Shown here piece by piece: positions 6,926-47,200 of a stretch of DNA of 49,849 nucleotides. Position numbers and translations under genes: made by a program. Each line of letters starts with the position of its first letter. The first letter of the stretch is position 1. This DNA comes from Candidatus Caenarcanales bacterium (GTDB lineage Bacteria > Cyanobacteriota > Vampirovibrionia > LMEP-6097). The stretch lies in NCBI GenBank assembly GCA_947459525.1, contig CANHDW010000003.1:1-49849 (forward strand), given 5' to 3'. The notes beneath the pieces are model-generated. The model was not told where the DNA came from. It saw nothing but the letters and a program-made list of their open reading frames with translations, and searched no databases.

Positions 6926-9421
6926 TTAATTGCTACTATTCATTAATAAAGCAAGTTTCTCCACAAGTTCTGCTGGATGGAAATTTGAACTGCCCCCAAT
7001 TATTACCATTCCAGTATTATCATTATTTGAGAAATTAACGTAAGTACTAGTACCGGGTATGGAACCTAATTTTAAAATATGCCCATCATTTAGATACCAG
7101 CCGAGTCCAATTTCACTAGAGCCAACCTCGCCCCCTGTAATAGAATTTTTCTGAACTTCTTGAGCTAATAACAGGGCAGATTCTATGGGAGATAGCTCTA
7201 AACCTTGTTCAGCTTTGTCTTTAGCTTGCATATTAGCTTGTAAGAATTTAACTAAATCTTCCGTTGTTGAATGGATGCCACCACTTCCGACAAAGGTATC
7301 GGTTACACCTGCGATTTTACCTTGATTAAACCCTTTTGCTAAATTTGCACTCTCGCTTGAGGATAAAGTTATTTTAGTTGTATCTAATCCTAGCGGGTCT
7401 AAAACACGATCATTTAGAAGATTTTCAAAGGTTGTTTCTGGAATATATTCTTCTCCAGATTCTTGGGTATGAGCAAAGGCTAGGGCTTCTTCTAATAAAC
7501 CATAACCATAATTACTATATTTATATTCTTTACCTGGTTCGCTTGCAAGTGTCGTAGATTCTACAAATGAAAATAAATCATCGACATCTTTACTGTCGGT
7601 GGGGTTCGTTGCAGGGTCTCTTAAGCCCGATGTGTGGGTTGCTAAATCTTCAAGAGTGATTTCTTTACCATTGTATTTTGGTAACTCAACGCCCGGGGGA
7701 AGGTACTGCTGCACTGGATCATCTAAATCTACTTCACCGCGTTCAACCATGTCAGCAAGTAGGGTTGCCGTTAAAGTTTTACTTACTGAACCGATTGAGA
7801 ATGTAGTATCTTCTGTTGGTGCCTGTACTCCATTTTTGGTATTAAGATCTGTGTCACCGACACTGTAGTACTTGGTTTGATCTCCATTGATTAATGCTAT
7901 GGATATTGGATAATTCTTTCCTGCTGAGTTTGCATATTCATTTAATAAATCTTGTACTGCTTTATCGCTTGGGAAACTTTTACTATTATTACTTTCTATG
8001 GCTTCATAATTTCCAGCCCAATACTGACTCATTTCACCAGTATTAAGATCGCCCCCGAGTACACCATCTTTATCGGTATCAAACTGTTCCCAGACATTTA
8101 AAAGCTCGTCAAAGTTTAATTTCCCATCTTTATCCGCATCATTTTTACTCACATGCTCATTCCAAGCACCTTTATTCCAGCCGAAAGAAGCCATTTCTTT
8201 ACCATCAAGGCTGCCATCTTTGTTTTTATCCCAAACATTATTGAAATTCACTTTATATTGTTCTTTAAATTTTATATCCTGTGCTGAATCACTAGGATCT
8301 TCATAATTTCCAGCCCAATACTGACTCATTTCACCAGTATTAAGATCGCCCCCGAGTACACCATCTTTATCGGTATCAAACTGTTTCCAGACATTTAAAA
8401 GCTCGTCAAAGTTTAATTTCCCATCTTTATTCGCATCATTTTTACTCACATGCTCATTCCAAGCACCTTTATTCCAGCCGAAAGAAGCCATTTCTTTACC
8501 ACCAAGGCTGCCATCTTTATTTTTATCCCAAACATTATTAAAATCAGCTTTATACTGCTCTGTAAATTTTGTATCTTGGAATGTTTCCACTGCACCGCCA
8601 TCTGGGTCTCCCATATCTTGAGGGTTTTCAGGAAAATGATCGCCATATCTTGGTCTAACAAACTCTCCAAGCTTATCTGTTAAGTGATAATCTACAAATT
8701 GTTCATTTAGTAAACTTACATATTTATTATCGGGGTCAGCAGATTTATATCCTTCTTCACCCCAGAAGTCAAACTGTATGTCATAAGCTTTGATTTCCTC
8801 CTGTATAGAATTTGTTTTTCCTTCTAGCGCACCATCTTTAGGATCATGCAGGTCTACATGAGCAAGTTCATGTATGAGTAAAGCTGCAACTACCTCAGCT
8901 GGAGCTTCTTCTAATAATTTCTTATCTAATTGTACTTCCTGCTTATCGCTACCTAGATTTTTAACTCGTGCCAAAATATTTTGACCAGTTACCGCTTTAG
9001 CATCAAATGATGATATTTTAGTATTTTCAAGATTATCAAGTATGCTAGAAAGTTCTGGATTTTCTACAATGTAATTTGCTATTAATTCTTTCGCATCATC
9101 TAGCTTAGTGCCTTTATTGGGACTTTGACTTCCCTCAAACTTCACCTCTTCTATACCACTGTCAATCTGTATTTGTGAGTTAGTAGCTTTGTTCGTTTTA
9201 TTATCAGATTTGATGACATTGTTTGAACTATCAACAATCAGCGTGTCATCACCAATTTTAGATTGATGATTCGTCGTAATACCTAATTCACTAGCCCGCT
9301 GTCTTACGGTATTAGTCTGTTTTTGAATATCAGCCTGATCAAGAGAAGAGTCTCCCTTTGTAAGCTGTTTATTCAAAGAGCCTAAGTCTGTTCTTAGGTT
9401 ATTGATCCTTGGGTTAAGCAT
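6926..9421 (-). CDS. zincin / EF-hand / serine beta-lactamase-like fusion protein
   Basis: The 831-residue product is a mosaic. Residues 1-60 share the MLNxRxxNLxxDL domain with the preceding RTX-like protein. Around 175-195 lies AALLIHELAHVDLHD, a HExxHxxxHD zincin metalloprotease motif (residues 184-193). Residues about 290-470 hold two near-identical blocks of three EF-hand-like loops (DKNKDGSLxGKE, DAxKDGKLNFDE, DTDKDGVLGG). Residues about 485-831 form a class C beta-lactamase/DD-peptidase-type serine hydrolase, with SVSK at 545-548 (nucleophile Ser545, Lys548), YSN at 635-637 and KLGSIPG near 784 as the third motif. No signal peptide is seen. Substrates are likely peptides or esters outside the cell, which is inferred. 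Beta-lactam resistance should not be assumed. Confidence 0.82.
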   Translation of the reverse strand: MLNPRINNLRTDLGSLNKQLTKGDSSLDQADIQKQTNTVRQRASELGITTNHQSKIGDDTLIVDSSNNVIKSDNKTNKATNSQIQIDSGIEEVKFEGSQSPNKGTKLDDAKELIANYIVENPELSSILDNLENTKISSFDAKAVTGQNILARVKNLGSDKQEVQLDKKLLEEAPAEVVAALLIHELAHVDLHDPKDGALEGKTNSIQEEIKAYDIQFDFWGEEGYKSADPDNKYVSLLNEQFVDYHLTDKLGEFVRPRYGDHFPENPQDMGDPDGGAVETFQDTKFTEQYKADFNNVWDKNKDGSLGGKEMASFGWNKGAWNEHVSKNDANKDGKLNFDELLNVWKQFDTDKDGVLGGDLNTGEMSQYWAGNYEDPSDSAQDIKFKEQYKVNFNNVWDKNKDGSLDGKEMASFGWNKGAWNEHVSKNDADKDGKLNFDELLNVWEQFDTDKDGVLGGDLNTGEMSQYWAGNYEAIESNNSKSFPSDKAVQDLLNEYANSAGKNYPISIALINGDQTKYYSVGDTDLNTKNGVQAPTEDTTFSIGSVSKTLTATLLADMVERGEVDLDDPVQQYLPPGVELPKYNGKEITLEDLATHTSGLRDPATNPTDSKDVDDLFSFVESTTLASEPGKEYKYSNYGYGLLEEALAFAHTQESGEEYIPETTFENLLNDRVLDPLGLDTTKITLSSSESANLAKGFNQGKIAGVTDTFVGSGGIHSTTEDLVKFLQANMQAKDKAEQGLELSPIESALLLAQEVQKNSITGGEVGSSEIGLGWYLNDGHILKLGSIPGTSTYVNFSNNDNTGMVIIGGSSNFHPAELVEKLALLMNSSN
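8002..8595 (-). repeat. 297-bp tandem duplication encoding an EF-hand block
   Basis: Two copies, 8002-8298 and 8299-8595, have a period of 297 bp, exactly 99 codons. Over the first roughly 235 bases the copies differ at only about five positions, then diverge toward the end of each unit. Each copy encodes three EF-hand-like calcium loops and the MSQYWAGNYE linker. High identity with a frame-preserving period indicates a recent duplication or ongoing homogenisation. Confidence 0.9.
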
Positions 9422-12477: not shown

Positions 12478-13317
12478 TTAGATAGTCTTAGTGCTGAGTT
12501 CAGAATTTTGATTTTTAAATAGAGAGATTATATTTTCTGTAAAAGCTTTAAGGTACTTATTATTTAGTTCTTCTGCTGTAATATTATCATCAAACTCAAT
12601 GGTAATGCAGTCCAGTCCTTTGTCTTTAGAGTAAGAACCAAGTGAGCCAGGAGTTGGATAGCCGATATCTTCGGTGAATTCCAGTTCTGTATCGCGTGCA
12701 AGTTTTATCGCAAAGTCTTTATGAGTACCTAGCCCATCATAGTTGACTTGTGGGGGATTTGGGAAGCGAATGAAATGGTTAGTATGAAAACTAATAATTA
12801 AATCAAAATCAAGACCCTCTATTAATTTAGTTAAAAGCTGAGTTTCGATTTCACTTGCAGGAAAGTCACCAGGGTAATAGGGGTTTTTTTCACCATCTAT
12901 TCTAAATTTTGCACTCTGCCAGTTTTGGCTTGGCATATTACGATTTAAATCTACGTCATTATGGTTATGACGAGTAAAATTTTTCAGGCCATGTGGATTT
13001 AATGCGGGAATTGCGATGATTTTAAAATCTTTAAGTTGATCTATATTGAGCTCTAGATCATTAATTTGGAGAGCAGTTTCTTCGACTGAATGTGCTGTTA
13101 GTCCAAGTAATTGAGATATTGACAATATGCCTATTGATCTTTTGTTGAGATCAGTATTTATAGAGCTATGCACTACTCCATTTTCTGAATTTTCATCAGT
13201 CTCATCTATAGATAGTATTTGGGTAAGTAGACTGTTCAAAAAGGCAGAACTTTGAGGCTCTACTCCGTGCGTTCCTGCTACTAATAATAGCCTCATTGGC
13301 AACGGTTCCCTTATCAA
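12478..13317 (-). CDS. M14-family zinc carboxypeptidase (MpaA/AstE-like)
   Basis: The 279-residue protein has the zinc ligands of M14 peptidases: GTHGVEPQ (HxxE), the NPHGL...VDLNRNMPSQNW region that binds substrate, SFHTN (third ligand His) and CITIEF (catalytic Glu). The DLNRN-NW combination resembles MpaA, which cleaves the gamma-D-Glu-diaminopimelate bond of murein peptides, so a role in cell-wall peptide recycling is inferred. I accept the TTG at 13315-13317 because a GGAG lies six bases upstream; ATG at 13296 is an alternative. Residues near 38-53 (ETDENSENGVVHSSIN) look like an in-frame piece of the interspersed element and interrupt the usual helix after the HxxE motif. Confidence 0.8.
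   Translation of the reverse strand: MIREPLPMRLLLVAGTHGVEPQSSAFLNSLLTQILSIDETDENSENGVVHSSINTDLNKRSIGILSISQLLGLTAHSVEETALQINDLELNIDQLKDFKIIAIPALNPHGLKNFTRHNHNDVDLNRNMPSQNWQSAKFRIDGEKNPYYPGDFPASEIETQLLTKLIEGLDFDLIISFHTNHFIRFPNPPQVNYDGLGTHKDFAIKLARDTELEFTEDIGYPTPGSLGSYSKDKGLDCITIEFDDNITAEELNNKYLKAFTENIISLFKNQNSELSTKTI
13155..13205 (-). mobile_element. in-frame right-end fragment of the interspersed element
   Basis: On the minus strand this stretch encodes DENSENGVVHSS. At DNA level it matches the right end of the full element (17075-17127): CAGAAAATGGAGT is shared exactly and the flanks are similar on both sides. The reading frame is the one used in argJ and queA. It sits in a surface region of the M14 peptidase, between the zinc-binding HxxE motif and the next conserved block. 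Confidence 0.55.
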
Positions 13318-15617: not shown

Positions 15618-16922
15618 ATGTCACAAGATCAACACAGGTTAAAGTCCCTAGATGCGCTGAAGACTTACGACTCAGGTTATCAGGACATTTTTTATAAAAG
15701 AAGCCAAAAAGATAGGTTTAACAAATATTTAAGTAGATATCTTCAGGGTCAATCTCTTGGCCTGCATGATGAATTAACTAACAGACCAGACTTAATGGAC
15801 TCTTTAGATATTAAGAGTTTGTTTATTTTAAATGCTTTGACCTATGAAATTCATTTAGAGGAAAAGAATCTCTTTGCAATAAAAAGAAATGAATTTATAG
15901 CTAACTCTCTTGTAAAGAAGCTTATAGATATTTATACGAAGATTTATAAATATGTTCAGTTAGATGAGGAATTAGATAAAAGATTTAAGAATATAGATTT
16001 TTATACTATTGCCAACTTATTACCAACTGTAATCGTTTACTATACTGATTTTATATTAGTGAACCAGCTTGAAGAGCTTTATCCTAAAGCATTTGAAATA
16101 TTATCTAATAAAAATTTATTTGATAATTTAAAAGAAGAATCTTTAAAGCCAGAGAGGTTGCGTTTACTTGCTCTATATCATAGACGTAATAAGGATTTGG
16201 GGAAAGCTGATGATGTGATGCTAGAGTATAGAGAGCAGTATCTCCCGGACTTAACCAAGAAAGTTAATTTAAAGAAATTACCAAACAAGCATAGTTACCC
16301 ACCTTCGGAAGTGGTTAATAATCTAGGTGTCCTTTATCAGGAGATCAAAGATATTCAGACAGAGGTCTGTGACCTAACTGGGGTTAATGAAGACACTTGT
16401 TTCTATTATAGTTGTTCAGAATGCTGTCATAATGACTATCCTGTACTCTATTATTCTGAATATAAATATTTGGTCCAAAAACTCAAAGAAGAAGGACGTG
16501 ATATCGAAATTTATAAAGCCAAGGCGAGAGATATTCAAAGCCAGCATGTAGAAAAGTATGGCTATGAGCTAAAGATCACGAATAAACATAGACCAACTAA
16601 AGAAGATGCGAATCCTAATGATTTTAAATATAGTTGTCCTTTTTTAGGTGAATCGGGTGGCTGTTCGGTACACCAGATTCGTCCGATGATGTGCAGGGCC
16701 TACGGTCTTTCTACTTCTGACAACAGAAATGTTCAGTCTTGTAATTATTATCTAAAACAGCATCAGTACAATTCCAATTATGAGAACATTCGTTATGTTT
16801 ATGACGTCAGGCCTTATGTAGCTTTAATTGAGGCTAGCGATGCTTACCAAATCAAGCAGGATCTTAATGAGAGTAAAAATCTCTGTGGTACTTTTATTGC
16901 TTGGCTGTGTAGTGATTATTAA
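15618..16922 (+). CDS. YkgJ-type cysteine cluster protein, 434 aa
   Basis: The C-terminal third holds a metal-binding cysteine pattern: CFYYSCSECC around residue 270, then SCPFLGESGGCSVHQIRPMMCRAYG near residue 345. This is the CxxxxCxxCC plus CPxL...GxCxxHxxRPxxCRxYG signature of the YkgJ/UPF0153 family, thought to bind zinc or an iron-sulfur cluster; its biochemical activity is unknown. The first 230 residues form a helical region specific to this protein, with DELTNRPDLMDSLDIKSLFIL resembling a helical-repeat or scaffold segment. It follows the tRNA-Leu gene by 28 bases and may be read through from rpsB-tsf. Downstream lies the intact interspersed element. Confidence 0.72.
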   Translation: MSQDQHRLKSLDALKTYDSGYQDIFYKRSQKDRFNKYLSRYLQGQSLGLHDELTNRPDLMDSLDIKSLFILNALTYEIHLEEKNLFAIKRNEFIANSLVKKLIDIYTKIYKYVQLDEELDKRFKNIDFYTIANLLPTVIVYYTDFILVNQLEELYPKAFEILSNKNLFDNLKEESLKPERLRLLALYHRRNKDLGKADDVMLEYREQYLPDLTKKVNLKKLPNKHSYPPSEVVNNLGVLYQEIKDIQTEVCDLTGVNEDTCFYYSCSECCHNDYPVLYYSEYKYLVQKLKEEGRDIEIYKAKARDIQSQHVEKYGYELKITNKHRPTKEDANPNDFKYSCPFLGESGGCSVHQIRPMMCRAYGLSTSDNRNVQSCNYYLKQHQYNSNYENIRYVYDVRPYVALIEASDAYQIKQDLNESKNLCGTFIAWLCSDY

Positions 16923-16937
16923 AAGCTCGCTCAGGAA

Positions 16938-17127
16938 GAGACCACTGCACAACGTGCAGTTTCAAGGCTGAGGAGGACGAATGACCGCAGTGTAATTTCC
17001 AGCGATGCCGAGTATGCGACACGAGTGTCGTACGCGAGCAAGCGGAAATACAAGCTCCGCTTACTACAAGTACATGAGGATCATGAGGACGACAAAAACG
17101 CAGAAAATGGAGTTGTGCAGTGGTCTC
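16938..17127. mobile_element. 190-bp miniature inverted-repeat element, intact copy
   Basis: The ends are perfect 16-bp inverted repeats: GAGACCACTGCACAAC at 16938-16953 and its exact complement at 17112-17127. AGGAA occurs directly outside both ends (16933-16937 and 17128-17132), which reads as a 5-bp target duplication. The interior is visibly more GC-rich than its surroundings. On the plus strand one frame is open across the whole element and beyond, encoding RLRRTND, KRKYKLRLL and HEDHEDDKNAENGVVQ segments that match the piece translated inside argJ. There is no transposase, so it would move in trans. It separates two convergent genes and abuts the argJ stop codon. Confidence 0.85.
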
Positions 17128-18940
17128 AGGAAGTGTATTCTGCATTAATCTTCACATAGTCATAACTTAAATCATTCCCAAGAAAATGTGCAGAATTTAG
17201 AGCTTTGTTTTCGATAGTCGATTTATTTTTAGTTAAACTTATAACTATCTCTACGTGCCTTGCTTGTTTCAATCGCTTAGCGAGTCTATCTAAATCCTCG
17301 CCAAAAATCTGTGCAGAAGCATTTTTAAAAACACAGCTATCTAATAGATTTACTTCAATTAAACTCATGTCTAAACCTTCTAGTAGAGCTTCTTCCCGTG
17401 CGAAAGCTGCAACTATGCGCCCCCAATTGGGGTCATTACCAAAGATGGCGGTTTTAACCAACATTGAGTTAATAATATTTCTGCCGATTTTTTGAAGATT
17501 TAACTGACTGATAGGTAAGTTTTCTAGCTTGAGGTCTATGATTTTGGTTAAACCTTCACCATCTGCGATAATCTGATAGCAGAGTCCTTTGCAGACTTCT
17601 TCAAGAGATGCTTTGAATTCTTCTTTGCTGATTTCTTCTCCAGTAAAATTATTTAATAGGAGAACCATATCATTAGTACTGGTATCACCGTCTACGCTGA
17701 TGTTATTAAAAGTAGTGCTGACGATTTCACTTACAGTTTCCTGCATAAATTCCGTGGCTTTTTCATTATTAAGACCTAAAATTTTTACATCTGTAATAAT
17801 AAAGCCAAGCATGGTCGCCATGTTTGGAGCTATCATGCCAGAACCTTTACAGATGCCAAGGAATCGCTGTTTCTGATCCTGACTGATCTTTGGAACAGTA
17901 TCTGTGGTCATAATCGCTCTGGCGAAATCATAGACAGCTTCATAAGATTTAGAATTTTTCTTTTCTTTTATTTTTTCTGTGAAAACCTTTTTAGCGTGAC
18001 TCAGGTCAAGCTTACGTCCTATAACCCCCGTACTCGCCGACAGTACTTTTGGACACTGCTTGCAGTCTCCAATTTCTGCGATATTTTCAATAAAATCTTC
18101 AAGCAGTTTCCTTAAATCATTATCTGCTTTAACCCCTTCTTCTCCAGTGCAGCAGTTAGCATTACCAGAATTGGCGATAAGACCATGGACGGTTTTAGAT
18201 TTTAATTCTATGTTATGTTCTACGCATACAGCTTTCATCGCATTTTTTGTAAAAGTACCAGCCCAAGAACAGGGTTTTTCTGAAAATAAAACTGCCATAT
18301 CTAAATTATTTATTTTAGAGACAGCTTTAATTCCCGAGTGAAAACCCGTGAGGGAGAAGTATTTAGGTAGTGATGGTATGTAGGCTTTAGCTAAAAGAGT
18401 GTAGCCTTCTGCACAGTAGTAAAGGGCTAGAGGCATTAAAGCATAACTGTAAGCTTGTATGCCCTGTGCAAGTAATAAGGATTTCTCTTCTTCAGAGGGT
18501 ATTTCACCGTCGGCAAGAGCAGCTACTTTAATTCCTAGGCACTGCTGCTGAACTCCAATTTCTGCGTTTTCGTCGTCCTCATGATCCTCATGTACGTTAA
18601 GTAAGCGGAGCTTGTATTTCCGCTTGCTCGCATACGACACTGGTGTCGCATCCTCGGCATCGCTGGAAATTACATTGCGGTCATTCGTCCTCCTCAGCCT
18701 TGAACTTGCACGTTCGGCAGCAGTGCCCTCTAAGGACTGCTGCCGAACTCCAAGTTCTGCGTCTTCGTCGTTAATCTGGGATGTATACAATTCAGTAACA
18801 GGGATAAAACCTATATTCCTAGGACTAGAACCTGTTAAATTCAGATGATCTACTATCCTCAGTTCTTTTCCAGCAAGCTCTTCTGTAAGTGGAATTACAG
18901 GGATAAATATTTCTTTGATTTTCATCTTTCCATTAGCCAT
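17126..18940 (-). CDS. argJ: glutamate N-acetyltransferase/amino-acid acetyltransferase with N-terminal extension
   Basis: From about residue 192 onward the protein is ArgJ, the self-cleaving Ntn-hydrolase that moves acetyl from N-acetylornithine to glutamate. GFHSGIK...AVLFSEKPCSWAGTFTKN, LIANSGNANCCTG, LSASTGVIGRKL and MIAPNMATMLGF are present, with the autoproteolytic Thr in ATMLGF. Later GDTSTNDM, NDPNWGRIVAA and the usual C-terminus DYVKINAEYTS follow. Residues 1-190 precede this. About 110 of them form an unidentified domain with VDHLNLTG, reminiscent of purine nucleoside phosphorylases. About 81 (57-137) are an in-frame mobile-element insertion. ATG at 18925 (ATGA overlap with the sppA stop) is an alternative start. 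Residues conserved for catalysis look intact. Confidence 0.9.
   Translation of the reverse strand: MANGKMKIKEIFIPVIPLTEELAGKELRIVDHLNLTGSSPRNIGFIPVTELYTSQINDEDAELGVRQQSLEGTAAERASSRLRRTNDRNVISSDAEDATPVSYASKRKYKLRLLNVHEDHEDDENAEIGVQQQCLGIKVAALADGEIPSEEEKSLLLAQGIQAYSYALMPLALYYCAEGYTLLAKAYIPSLPKYFSLTGFHSGIKAVSKINNLDMAVLFSEKPCSWAGTFTKNAMKAVCVEHNIELKSKTVHGLIANSGNANCCTGEEGVKADNDLRKLLEDFIENIAEIGDCKQCPKVLSASTGVIGRKLDLSHAKKVFTEKIKEKKNSKSYEAVYDFARAIMTTDTVPKISQDQKQRFLGICKGSGMIAPNMATMLGFIITDVKILGLNNEKATEFMQETVSEIVSTTFNNISVDGDTSTNDMVLLLNNFTGEEISKEEFKASLEEVCKGLCYQIIADGEGLTKIIDLKLENLPISQLNLQKIGRNIINSMLVKTAIFGNDPNWGRIVAAFAREEALLEGLDMSLIEVNLLDSCVFKNASAQIFGEDLDRLAKRLKQARHVEIVISLTKNKSTIENKALNSAHFLGNDLSYDYVKINAEYTS
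18533..18770 (-). mobile_element. composite in-frame insertion of the interspersed element inside argJ
   Basis: A full-length copy (about 18538-18727) resembles the intact copy at 16938 in opposite orientation. It matches nearly base for base through the interior, from the CTGAGGAGGACGAATGACCGC block to the CATGAGGATCATGAGGACGAC block. Its ends, GGCACTGCTGCTGAAC and GTTCGGCAGCAGTGCC, are inverted repeats with one mismatch and a variant of the other copy's ends. A truncated second right end (about 18733-18770) is joined to it. The 5-mer TTAAT flanks the composite at 18528-18532 and 18771-18775. The distance between these repeats, 243 bp, equals 81 codons, and no stop codon is introduced. Confidence 0.82.
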
Positions 18941-33150: not shown

Positions 33151-33177
33151 CTATGGAGAAATTTTAACATGGGCGTG

Positions 33178-33201
33178 TAGCGAAACTCCAATTTCTGCGT
33201 T
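33178..33201 (-). mobile_element. truncated right end of the interspersed element after queA
   Basis: The 51-base gap between the queA stop and adk contains, on the minus strand, AAAACGCAGAAATTGGAGTT. This 20-base string is identical to one in the argJ copy. It begins right at the queA TAA codon. No matching left end is present. Confidence 0.6.
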
Positions 33202-34386
33202 TTAAAGCAAAAGGCAGCAGTCACCATAACTAAAGAATCGATATTTTTCTTCAACGGCTATCTGGTAAAGGGTTTTACATTCCTCTATGCCAATTAATGT
33301 GCTTACTAATAGTAGTAAAGTGGATTTAGGTAGATGAAAATTAGTGAGAAGCCCATCTATAATTTTAAATTTAAAATTTCCAGGATAAATATATAAATCA
33401 GTCTCACCACGTAATTTACCAGTAATAGCTATGCTTTCAAGACAGCGTAAGCTAGTAGTGCCGATAGCGATTACCCTCCTCCCTTCGGCTTTGGCTGACT
33501 GAATTTTATCCCAGTTTTCAGAGATAATTTCATAAGTCTCGAAATGCATCTTATGGTCTTTTACTTCGCTTACGCTGACAGGCTTAAAGGTTCCTATGCC
33601 TACATCTAGATTTAAGTCTATAAATTCAACTCCTTTTCTTGTAAGTGCTTGAATAATTTCTTCGGTGAAATGCAATCCAGCAGTAGGCGCTGCAATGCTG
33701 CTACCTAGAGAGTCTTGTTTAGAATAGACTGTCTGATAGCGTTCTTTATCACTATCTTCAGCACTCCTTTGTAGATAAGGTGGTATCGGCATAGTGCCGT
33801 GATTCGTGATTATGTTTATAAATTGCTCATAGCTTTTGAATTCAACTATCATCATCCCATCTTCATTCGAAGATCGCTGCACAACTCCATTTTCTGTGTT
33901 TCCCTTGAAAATAATTATTTCTTCGGATGAGCCACTTATGATATAAGATCGAGGGTTAGTTTTAATTTTTTTCCCAGGCTTAGCTAGAGCCGTCCAGCAA
34001 TATTTTTTATCATGGGACTGCTCGAAAATTCTAAATTCTGCATTTCCATAATCTCCATCATCCTCATGATCCGACAATTCTTTAACTAAAAGTATTTCGA
34101 TAGCTTTGTTTTCAGGCTTCTCTTTATCTATCACAAAAAATCTCGCTGCTAGCACTCTAGTGACATTCCTCACTAAAATATCACCGGCTTTTAGAATGGA
34201 GCATATATCTTTAAAGGATTTATGTTCGATATTTTTATTAAGTTCTTGTGAAATAGTGCCTTGGAGATTTGGTGCTTCCTGGATTTCTCGCTTATAATAG
34301 AGCAAGCGAGAATTATCCCTTTTATCTAGTGGATACTTAGCGACTAATTCCTCTGGTAGCTCAAAATCAAAATCGTCAATTAACAT
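33202..34386 (-). CDS. queA: tRNA preQ1(34) S-adenosylmethionine ribosyltransferase-isomerase, with insertions
   Basis: QueA converts preQ1 in tRNA to epoxyqueuosine. FDFELPEELVAKYPLDKRDNSRLL, LVRNVTRVLAARF, WTALAKPGKKIK, GTMPIPPYLQR, YQTVYSKQDSLGSSIAAPTAGLHFTEEI and LDVGIGTFKPVSVSEVKDHKMHFETYEI are conserved, followed by GTTSLRCLES and the end YRFFSYGDCCLLL. Length 394 exceeds the usual 340-356. The excess lies in SDHEDDGDYGNAEFRIFEQSHD after AIEILLVKEL and in NGVVQRSSNE before DGMMIVEF. Both match the interspersed element at DNA level, so both are in-frame insertions in loop positions. It is the first gene of the seven-gene operon. Confidence 0.95.
   Translation of the reverse strand: MLIDDFDFELPEELVAKYPLDKRDNSRLLYYKREIQEAPNLQGTISQELNKNIEHKSFKDICSILKAGDILVRNVTRVLAARFFVIDKEKPENKAIEILLVKELSDHEDDGDYGNAEFRIFEQSHDKKYCWTALAKPGKKIKTNPRSYIISGSSEEIIIFKGNTENGVVQRSSNEDGMMIVEFKSYEQFINIITNHGTMPIPPYLQRSAEDSDKERYQTVYSKQDSLGSSIAAPTAGLHFTEEIIQALTRKGVEFIDLNLDVGIGTFKPVSVSEVKDHKMHFETYEIISENWDKIQSAKAEGRRVIAIGTTSLRCLESIAITGKLRGETDLYIYPGNFKFKIIDGLLTNFHLPKSTLLLLVSTLIGIEECKTLYQIAVEEKYRFFSYGDCCLLL
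33870..33899 (-). mobile_element. 30-bp in-frame element fragment in queA
   Basis: This piece encodes NGVVQRSSNE, inserted between GNTE and DGMMIVEF. The surrounding string CACAGAAAATGGAGTTGTGCAG differs by one base from the right end of the intact element (17098-17120). The net addition is ten codons. Confidence 0.7.
34014..34075 (-). mobile_element. about 62-bp in-frame element fragment in queA
   Basis: The segment encodes HEDDGDYGNAEFRIFEQS, comparable residue by residue with HEDHEDDENAEIGVQQQC of the argJ copy. CATGAGGAT, GCAGAA and GCAGT are kept at the DNA level, with decay between them, so this insertion is older than those in argJ. It lies between AIEILLVKEL and the WTALAKPG block of QueA. 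Confidence 0.6.
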
Positions 34387-47098: not shown

Positions 47099-47157
47099 GG
47101 AGGCTGATGTATAGTGGGATTGCTTGTGAAAATATAAGTTCAAGGCAATGCTCGCAA

Positions 47158-47200
47158 GTGTGCAAGTTTAAGGCGGGGGGGCGAATGACCGCAAAATGTA
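47158..47200 (+). mobile_element. left-interior fragment of the interspersed element
   Basis: The run GTGTGCAAGTTTAAGG, seven Gs, then CGAATGACCGCAAAATGTA parallels the left interior of the element in argJ (GTGCAAGTTCAAGG ... GACGAATGACCGCAATGTAA). CGAATGACCGCA is identical to both full copies. Both ends are missing. A second shorter match to AAGTTCAAGGC precedes it at 47136-47146. Confidence 0.6.

Follow-up and report, generated by a model that had tools for sequence, protein, structure and literature searches.

A short, palindromic, non-autonomous mobile element has very probably inserted twice, in separate events, into the queA gene of this Candidatus Caenarcanales genome, and the two extra loops in the QueA protein would be what these insertions left behind after shrinking in frame. 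The window analysed is the whole stretch of 49,849 nucleotides of contig CANHDW010000003.1. Dozens of comparable cases exist in the genome, queA among them, and it is the element family and not queA itself that is of interest.

Remnants of the element in queA

The queA gene (33202..34386, minus strand) is an ORF of 394 aa for S-adenosylmethionine:tRNA ribosyltransferase-isomerase, and the Pfam family PF02547 Queuosine_synth matches it over residues 4-393 (E 2.8e-109). The solved QueA homologues 1vky, 1yy3, and 1wdi have 345-347 residues, which bears out an earlier sequence-only reading that this protein exceeds the usual length by 40-50 residues. Insert 1 (34014..34072, minus strand; residues ~105-128) is an in-frame right-end remnant of subfamily GTTTGCGAGCAGTCCC and scores 17.5 bits with nhmmer (E 8.5e-5). 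Insert 2 (33871..33901, minus strand; residues ~163-175) is likewise an in-frame right-end remnant, of subfamily GTTGTGCAGCGGTCT (16.3 bits, E 2.1e-4). The right-end HMM used in these nhmmer searches was built from 41 copies of the repeat. Both scores are about twice the top score of 8.7 bits in a control of 20 simulated 50-kb sequences (1 Mb), and the assignment of both loops to one repeat family therefore holds. The reported single-base difference from the intact element over 22 bases was also recovered, in CGCTGCACAACTCCATTTTCTG at position 33875. A third right end (33172..33203, minus strand; subfamily GTTTCGCTACACGCCC, nhmmer E 1.1e-6) abuts the stop codon of queA upstream of adk and is common to all three congeneric species.

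In an AlphaFold2 model, both inserts (residues 106-126 and 164-175) fall between predicted strands with pLDDT below 50, which is consistent with the proposed placement of the extra residues in loops. The model is of moderate quality, with a mean pLDDT of 67.5 from a 9-sequence alignment, and it retrieves the structures 1vky, 1yy3, and 1wdi with a loose fit (TM 0.49-0.52 by query length). QueA also has a 15-residue genus-specific insertion at residues 34-48 (window 34243-34287), for which the HMM search gave neither a right-end nor a left-end match to the element.

Structure of the element and its copies in the window

The short form of the element (~121 nt) has a conserved core and a terminal stem of 16 pairs. 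Copies in the window show a long form of ~190 nt with extra sequence in the middle, and the two forms read in the same frame. The middle part of the element can be gained or lost in place. In an alignment of 18 sequences, the element folds into a hairpin of 39 pairs with 95.2% of cells paired and double-sided changes at 21 pairs, and all 500 shuffles fall short on each of five hairpin measures. The terminal stems form subfamilies: 12.4 of 15 end positions pair within copies versus 9.1 between copies, a value not equalled in 20000 permutations. The element thus has the terminal inverted repeats that are characteristic of a MITE. One sense frame runs through the core without a stop in 40/41 copies, and one antisense frame is also open in 29/41. 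These 41 copies have both ends present and were drawn from 54 loci of best blastn matches, a sample biased to good copies; 38 of them come from the genus and three from its sister genus G006. In columns 29-93 of alignment A2, the pairs in part of the core recur with a three-base period that matches the codon phase of the open frame. One insertion site is occupied by the long form in one of the genomes G000 (the present one) and G001 and by the short form in the other (L001 and L091). No match to any of 4227 Rfam covariance models was found up to E = 5 for the copy at 16900-17160, and the phage and plasmid collections gave no blastn match at E 1e-5.

The window contains two full elements. The first (16938..17127, plus strand; cmsearch 120.7 bits) has a 15-bp perfect terminal inverted repeat and the flanking direct repeat TCAGGAA. 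The second (18538..18727, minus strand; cmsearch 120.1 bits) lies in frame inside argJ, an ORF of 615 aa, and a right end stands directly upstream of it in the sense of argJ (18734..18771, minus strand; nhmmer E 6e-8). A second argJ site has a right-end remnant (18052..18080, minus strand; nhmmer E 0.004), which is also seen in the ArgJ alignment. A possible remnant, with a weak score (nhmmer E 0.056), is located at 13169..13204 on the minus strand in an M14-type peptidase ORF (12478-13317). A left-end-only fragment (47147..47193, plus strand; E 0.0046) lies where no ORF of 120 aa is listed. The tally for the window is six right-end-only matches versus one left-end-only match. Apart from these, the window contains a direct repeat of 280 nt and 95% identity (8002-8578) inside an 831-aa ORF (6926-9421), and the duplicated segment is presumably EF-hand-like.

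Insertion sites and reading frame

In a purine nucleoside phosphorylase-like gene, a long copy in G000 has an ATCAAG motif on either side, and the aligned site in the congener G002 has one ATCAAG. The insertion adds 207 bp, a multiple of three, and a 6-bp target duplication is seen. G001 has no copy in this gene, judged by search coordinates. The flanking direct repeats of the 41 copies have a mean of 4.3 bases versus 2.6 in shuffled pairings (0/300 as high), a mean that includes long repeats from tandem copies and one site counted in two species. By the occupied/empty pair and the population test together, the element makes the target-site duplication of a MITE. At the Radical-SAM-like gene of locus L025 no empty site was found, and both congeners align over the whole query. 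The first argJ site has a full element in G000 and a reduced one in each of the congeners G001 and G002. At the second site G000 and G001 have the right-end remnant, and G002 has the remnant together with a complete 42-aa unit, a pattern explained equally well by loss or by insertion next to a right end that was already present. The full and reduced states of argJ interconvert in frame, and the pattern is compatible with either direction of change.

The exact 16-base right-end core occurs 74 times in the 1.02-Mb assembly of G000, which is 54.5% complete, and its reversed control occurs 0 times. Half of the cores (37/74) lie over ORFs of at least 150 aa, and 33 of these 37 are in the open sense frame of the element. 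Three of the four off-frame right ends are within 9 codons of the end of the ORF, and the fourth is that of locus L024. The short right ends in such ORFs keep the same frame in 19/21 cases, though 4-6 frames are open per piece; the product of 1/open frames is 2e-14, with tandem neighbours not independent. This bias is expected if the short right ends are the remains of complete copies, and selection for the encoded peptide is an alternative account. The host genes include QueA and ArgJ, identified by Pfam, and what we take from their translations to be ArgS, ValS, TrpD, LepB, TsaE, and purine nucleoside phosphorylase. An example of the peptide predicted from the element in housekeeping proteins is ..HEDHEDDENAEIGV... 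The open frame is thus inserted in frame within unrelated conserved genes, as in the Rickettsia palindromic elements (RPE).

Origin of the queA loops

A queA match is present in 51 of 60 genomes, and 30 QueA loci were compared. Both loops occur in all three genomes of the genus (G000, G001, and G002) and in none of the 27 QueA of other genera (2/27 partial), so that no element-free relative in this set carries them. The sister genus G006 has the element, and its QueA is without either loop. Relative to G000, loop 1 lacks 9 bases in G001 and 33 in G002, and all steps are multiples of three. Outside the inserts, queA has a dN of 0.013-0.024 versus a dS of 0.16-0.37, and insert 1 has a dN of 0.125-0.185 over few sites. 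The gene is thus under strong purifying selection outside the inserts, and the constraint is relaxed in insert 1.

The identity of insert 1 to the best genomic right ends is 25/31 in G000, 27/31 in G001, and 30/31 in G002. Insert 2 matches a genomic right-end copy at 29/31 positions in G000 and 26/31 in G001, and the right end at the queA stop codon (31/31) has exact matches elsewhere in the genome. At 30/31 (in G002), 29/31, and 31/31, the three pieces belong to three different end-stem subfamilies, and they are therefore assigned to separate insertions and not to one rearranged copy. The proposal of separate events is supported on this ground. The sequence-only reading had taken one piece to be decayed and had derived two insertion times from the decay. 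Insert 1 is indeed diverged in the present genome, but the same insert is nearly perfect in G002, and both inserts are present in all three species and predate their split. The age estimate from decay was therefore dropped; the decay of insert 1 is a lineage-specific change within a relaxed loop and no clock. Two hits in one gene are unremarkable: when six pieces were randomly placed on the 40 ORFs of the window, a double hit occurred in 37% of trials, as a rough estimate. A TrpD-like protein (L122:1294-2550) has three element-like peptides, and multiple hits are not special to queA.

Three other explanations were weighed. The right end alone (~31 nt) might be mobile or copied, for example through the insertion of 5'-truncated copies, and queA might have received it directly. 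Such a direct insertion is conceivable because the queA of the three species contains neither a complete copy nor a left end. Moreover, short right ends are common (25 of the 58 in a first sample have the whole 26-nt upstream consensus, while the other 33 start at varied points), and right-end-only matches prevail in the window. However, the one frame shared by nearly all short right ends, though most frames are open, is expected only from complete copies or from peptide selection. In addition, the length of insert 1 varies among the species at one site, and length change after insertion thus occurs. This explanation is on balance unlikely. The other option of the sequence-only reading, one queA insertion that was subsequently broken up or rearranged to give both pieces, is very improbable: both pieces are right ends with matching orientation and frame, but their subfamilies differ (AAT..GTTGTGCAGCGGTCT vs ATT..GTTTGCGAGCAGTCCC), which contradicts a common origin, and the QueA sequence between them aligns with that of relatives. 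The least credible account holds that the loops are native QueA extensions specific to the lineage and only look like the repeat by chance. Loop 1 does vary in length in other QueA (L037, L038, and L040 have unrelated residues there), but the HMM scores far exceed the simulated control, insert 1 of G002 is almost identical to genomic copies, and the loops are absent from all 27 QueA of other genera.

Distribution of the element

The named congeners are Cyanobacteria bacterium REEB446 and Candidatus Melainabacteria LMEP_6097. With 18 candidates per genome scored by the covariance model, members of the element family were found in 14 of 194 genomes of the class: the family's nine genomes without exception, four from a second family, and, by a weak match, one from a third. 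G003, G005, G007, and G008, in which blastn finds nothing, were considered to be without the element, and this was rejected as the covariance model gives at least 3-9 diverged copies in each. Among 41 copies from outside the genus (G003-G008, G015, and G025), 6 are stop-free from the first base of the match, and three of these 6 are inside ORFs of 373-428 aa in that frame. The translatable form is therefore rare outside the genus and common within it, in copy samples that were both picked by match score.

It is quite possible, if still tentative, that a hairpin repeat long present in several Melainabacteria families, and mostly interrupted by stops, became translatable in one genus, with the frame opened and the added length a multiple of three, and so could spread through housekeeping genes. 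The ends would then be recognised by the shape of the hairpin and not by sequence, because the terminal stems differ between subfamilies yet keep pairing.

Proposed mechanism

In the preferred explanation of two shrunken insertions, a complete copy would duplicate ~6 bp on insertion and lengthen the site by a multiple of three bases. Because one sense frame stays open through the core, a copy inserted in the matching phase and orientation would extend the host protein by ~42-69 residues and not truncate it. Insertions would persist in proteins that can accommodate an additional flexible loop. Such an insert may then shrink through in-frame deletion, mostly keeping the right end. We infer that each queA piece started out as a complete copy, that the remainder was lost by deletion, and that the element is mobilised by a transposase encoded elsewhere.

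Comparison with known systems

Rickettsia and Wolbachia are the best-known hosts of in-frame palindromic repeats, and the movement and peptide role of the repeats there are open questions. In the open-licence literature, such elements were not found described in Melainabacteria. The element supplies an independent case from a distant group. With three genomes of one genus, relatives rich in stops, an occupied/empty site, and ends that covary, it makes the questions on movement and peptide role testable. A caution also follows, as odd protein loops in these genomes may be repeat remnants.

In the parts of the sources consulted, RPE are palindromic repeats of ~100-150 bp with an open frame, are located in frame in genes, and are shared by orthologues, and one insert-bearing enzyme is reported to be active (PMC2229807, PMC10969869, PMC3767692). 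By the same excerpts, the element resembles the Rickettsia/Wolbachia palindromic elements as a stem-loop of ~100-200 bp in many copies, with one conserved open frame, in-frame positions in unrelated conserved genes, and insertions shared by orthologues (PMC2229807, PMC10969869, PMC3767692). The 39-pair hairpin agrees with the long stem-loop of a ~100-150 bp palindromic repeat. In contrast to RPE, which occur in Rickettsiales, the element is present in genomes of the Melainabacteria group, in another phylum. A target duplication is seen here, whereas the RPE entry is '?' in the consulted part of PMC2229807. The terminal stems of the element, unlike those of RPE, vary between copies but covary within copies, and the element has many right-end remnants, and its relatives elsewhere in the class, in other genera and families, are rich in stops. 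Judged by descriptions of RPE, the element appears to work like RPE and is filed as a non-member.

Similar to MITEs with open frames (ERIC, the 107-bp form of Correia, YPAL, and the Coxiella MITEs), as far as these are covered in the consulted text of PMC2229807 and PMC5896051, the element is short and non-autonomous, has inverted terminal repeats and target duplications, and forms some in-frame fusions. Unlike in these MITEs, the ends are a set of covarying stems and not one fixed sequence, and nearly all copies in long ORFs share one frame. Like REP/BIME, the element consists of dispersed palindromes. REP/BIME are 20-40 bp long and extragenic in the consulted part of PMC3733652, whereas the copies described here are long hairpins, about half of which are located in long ORFs.
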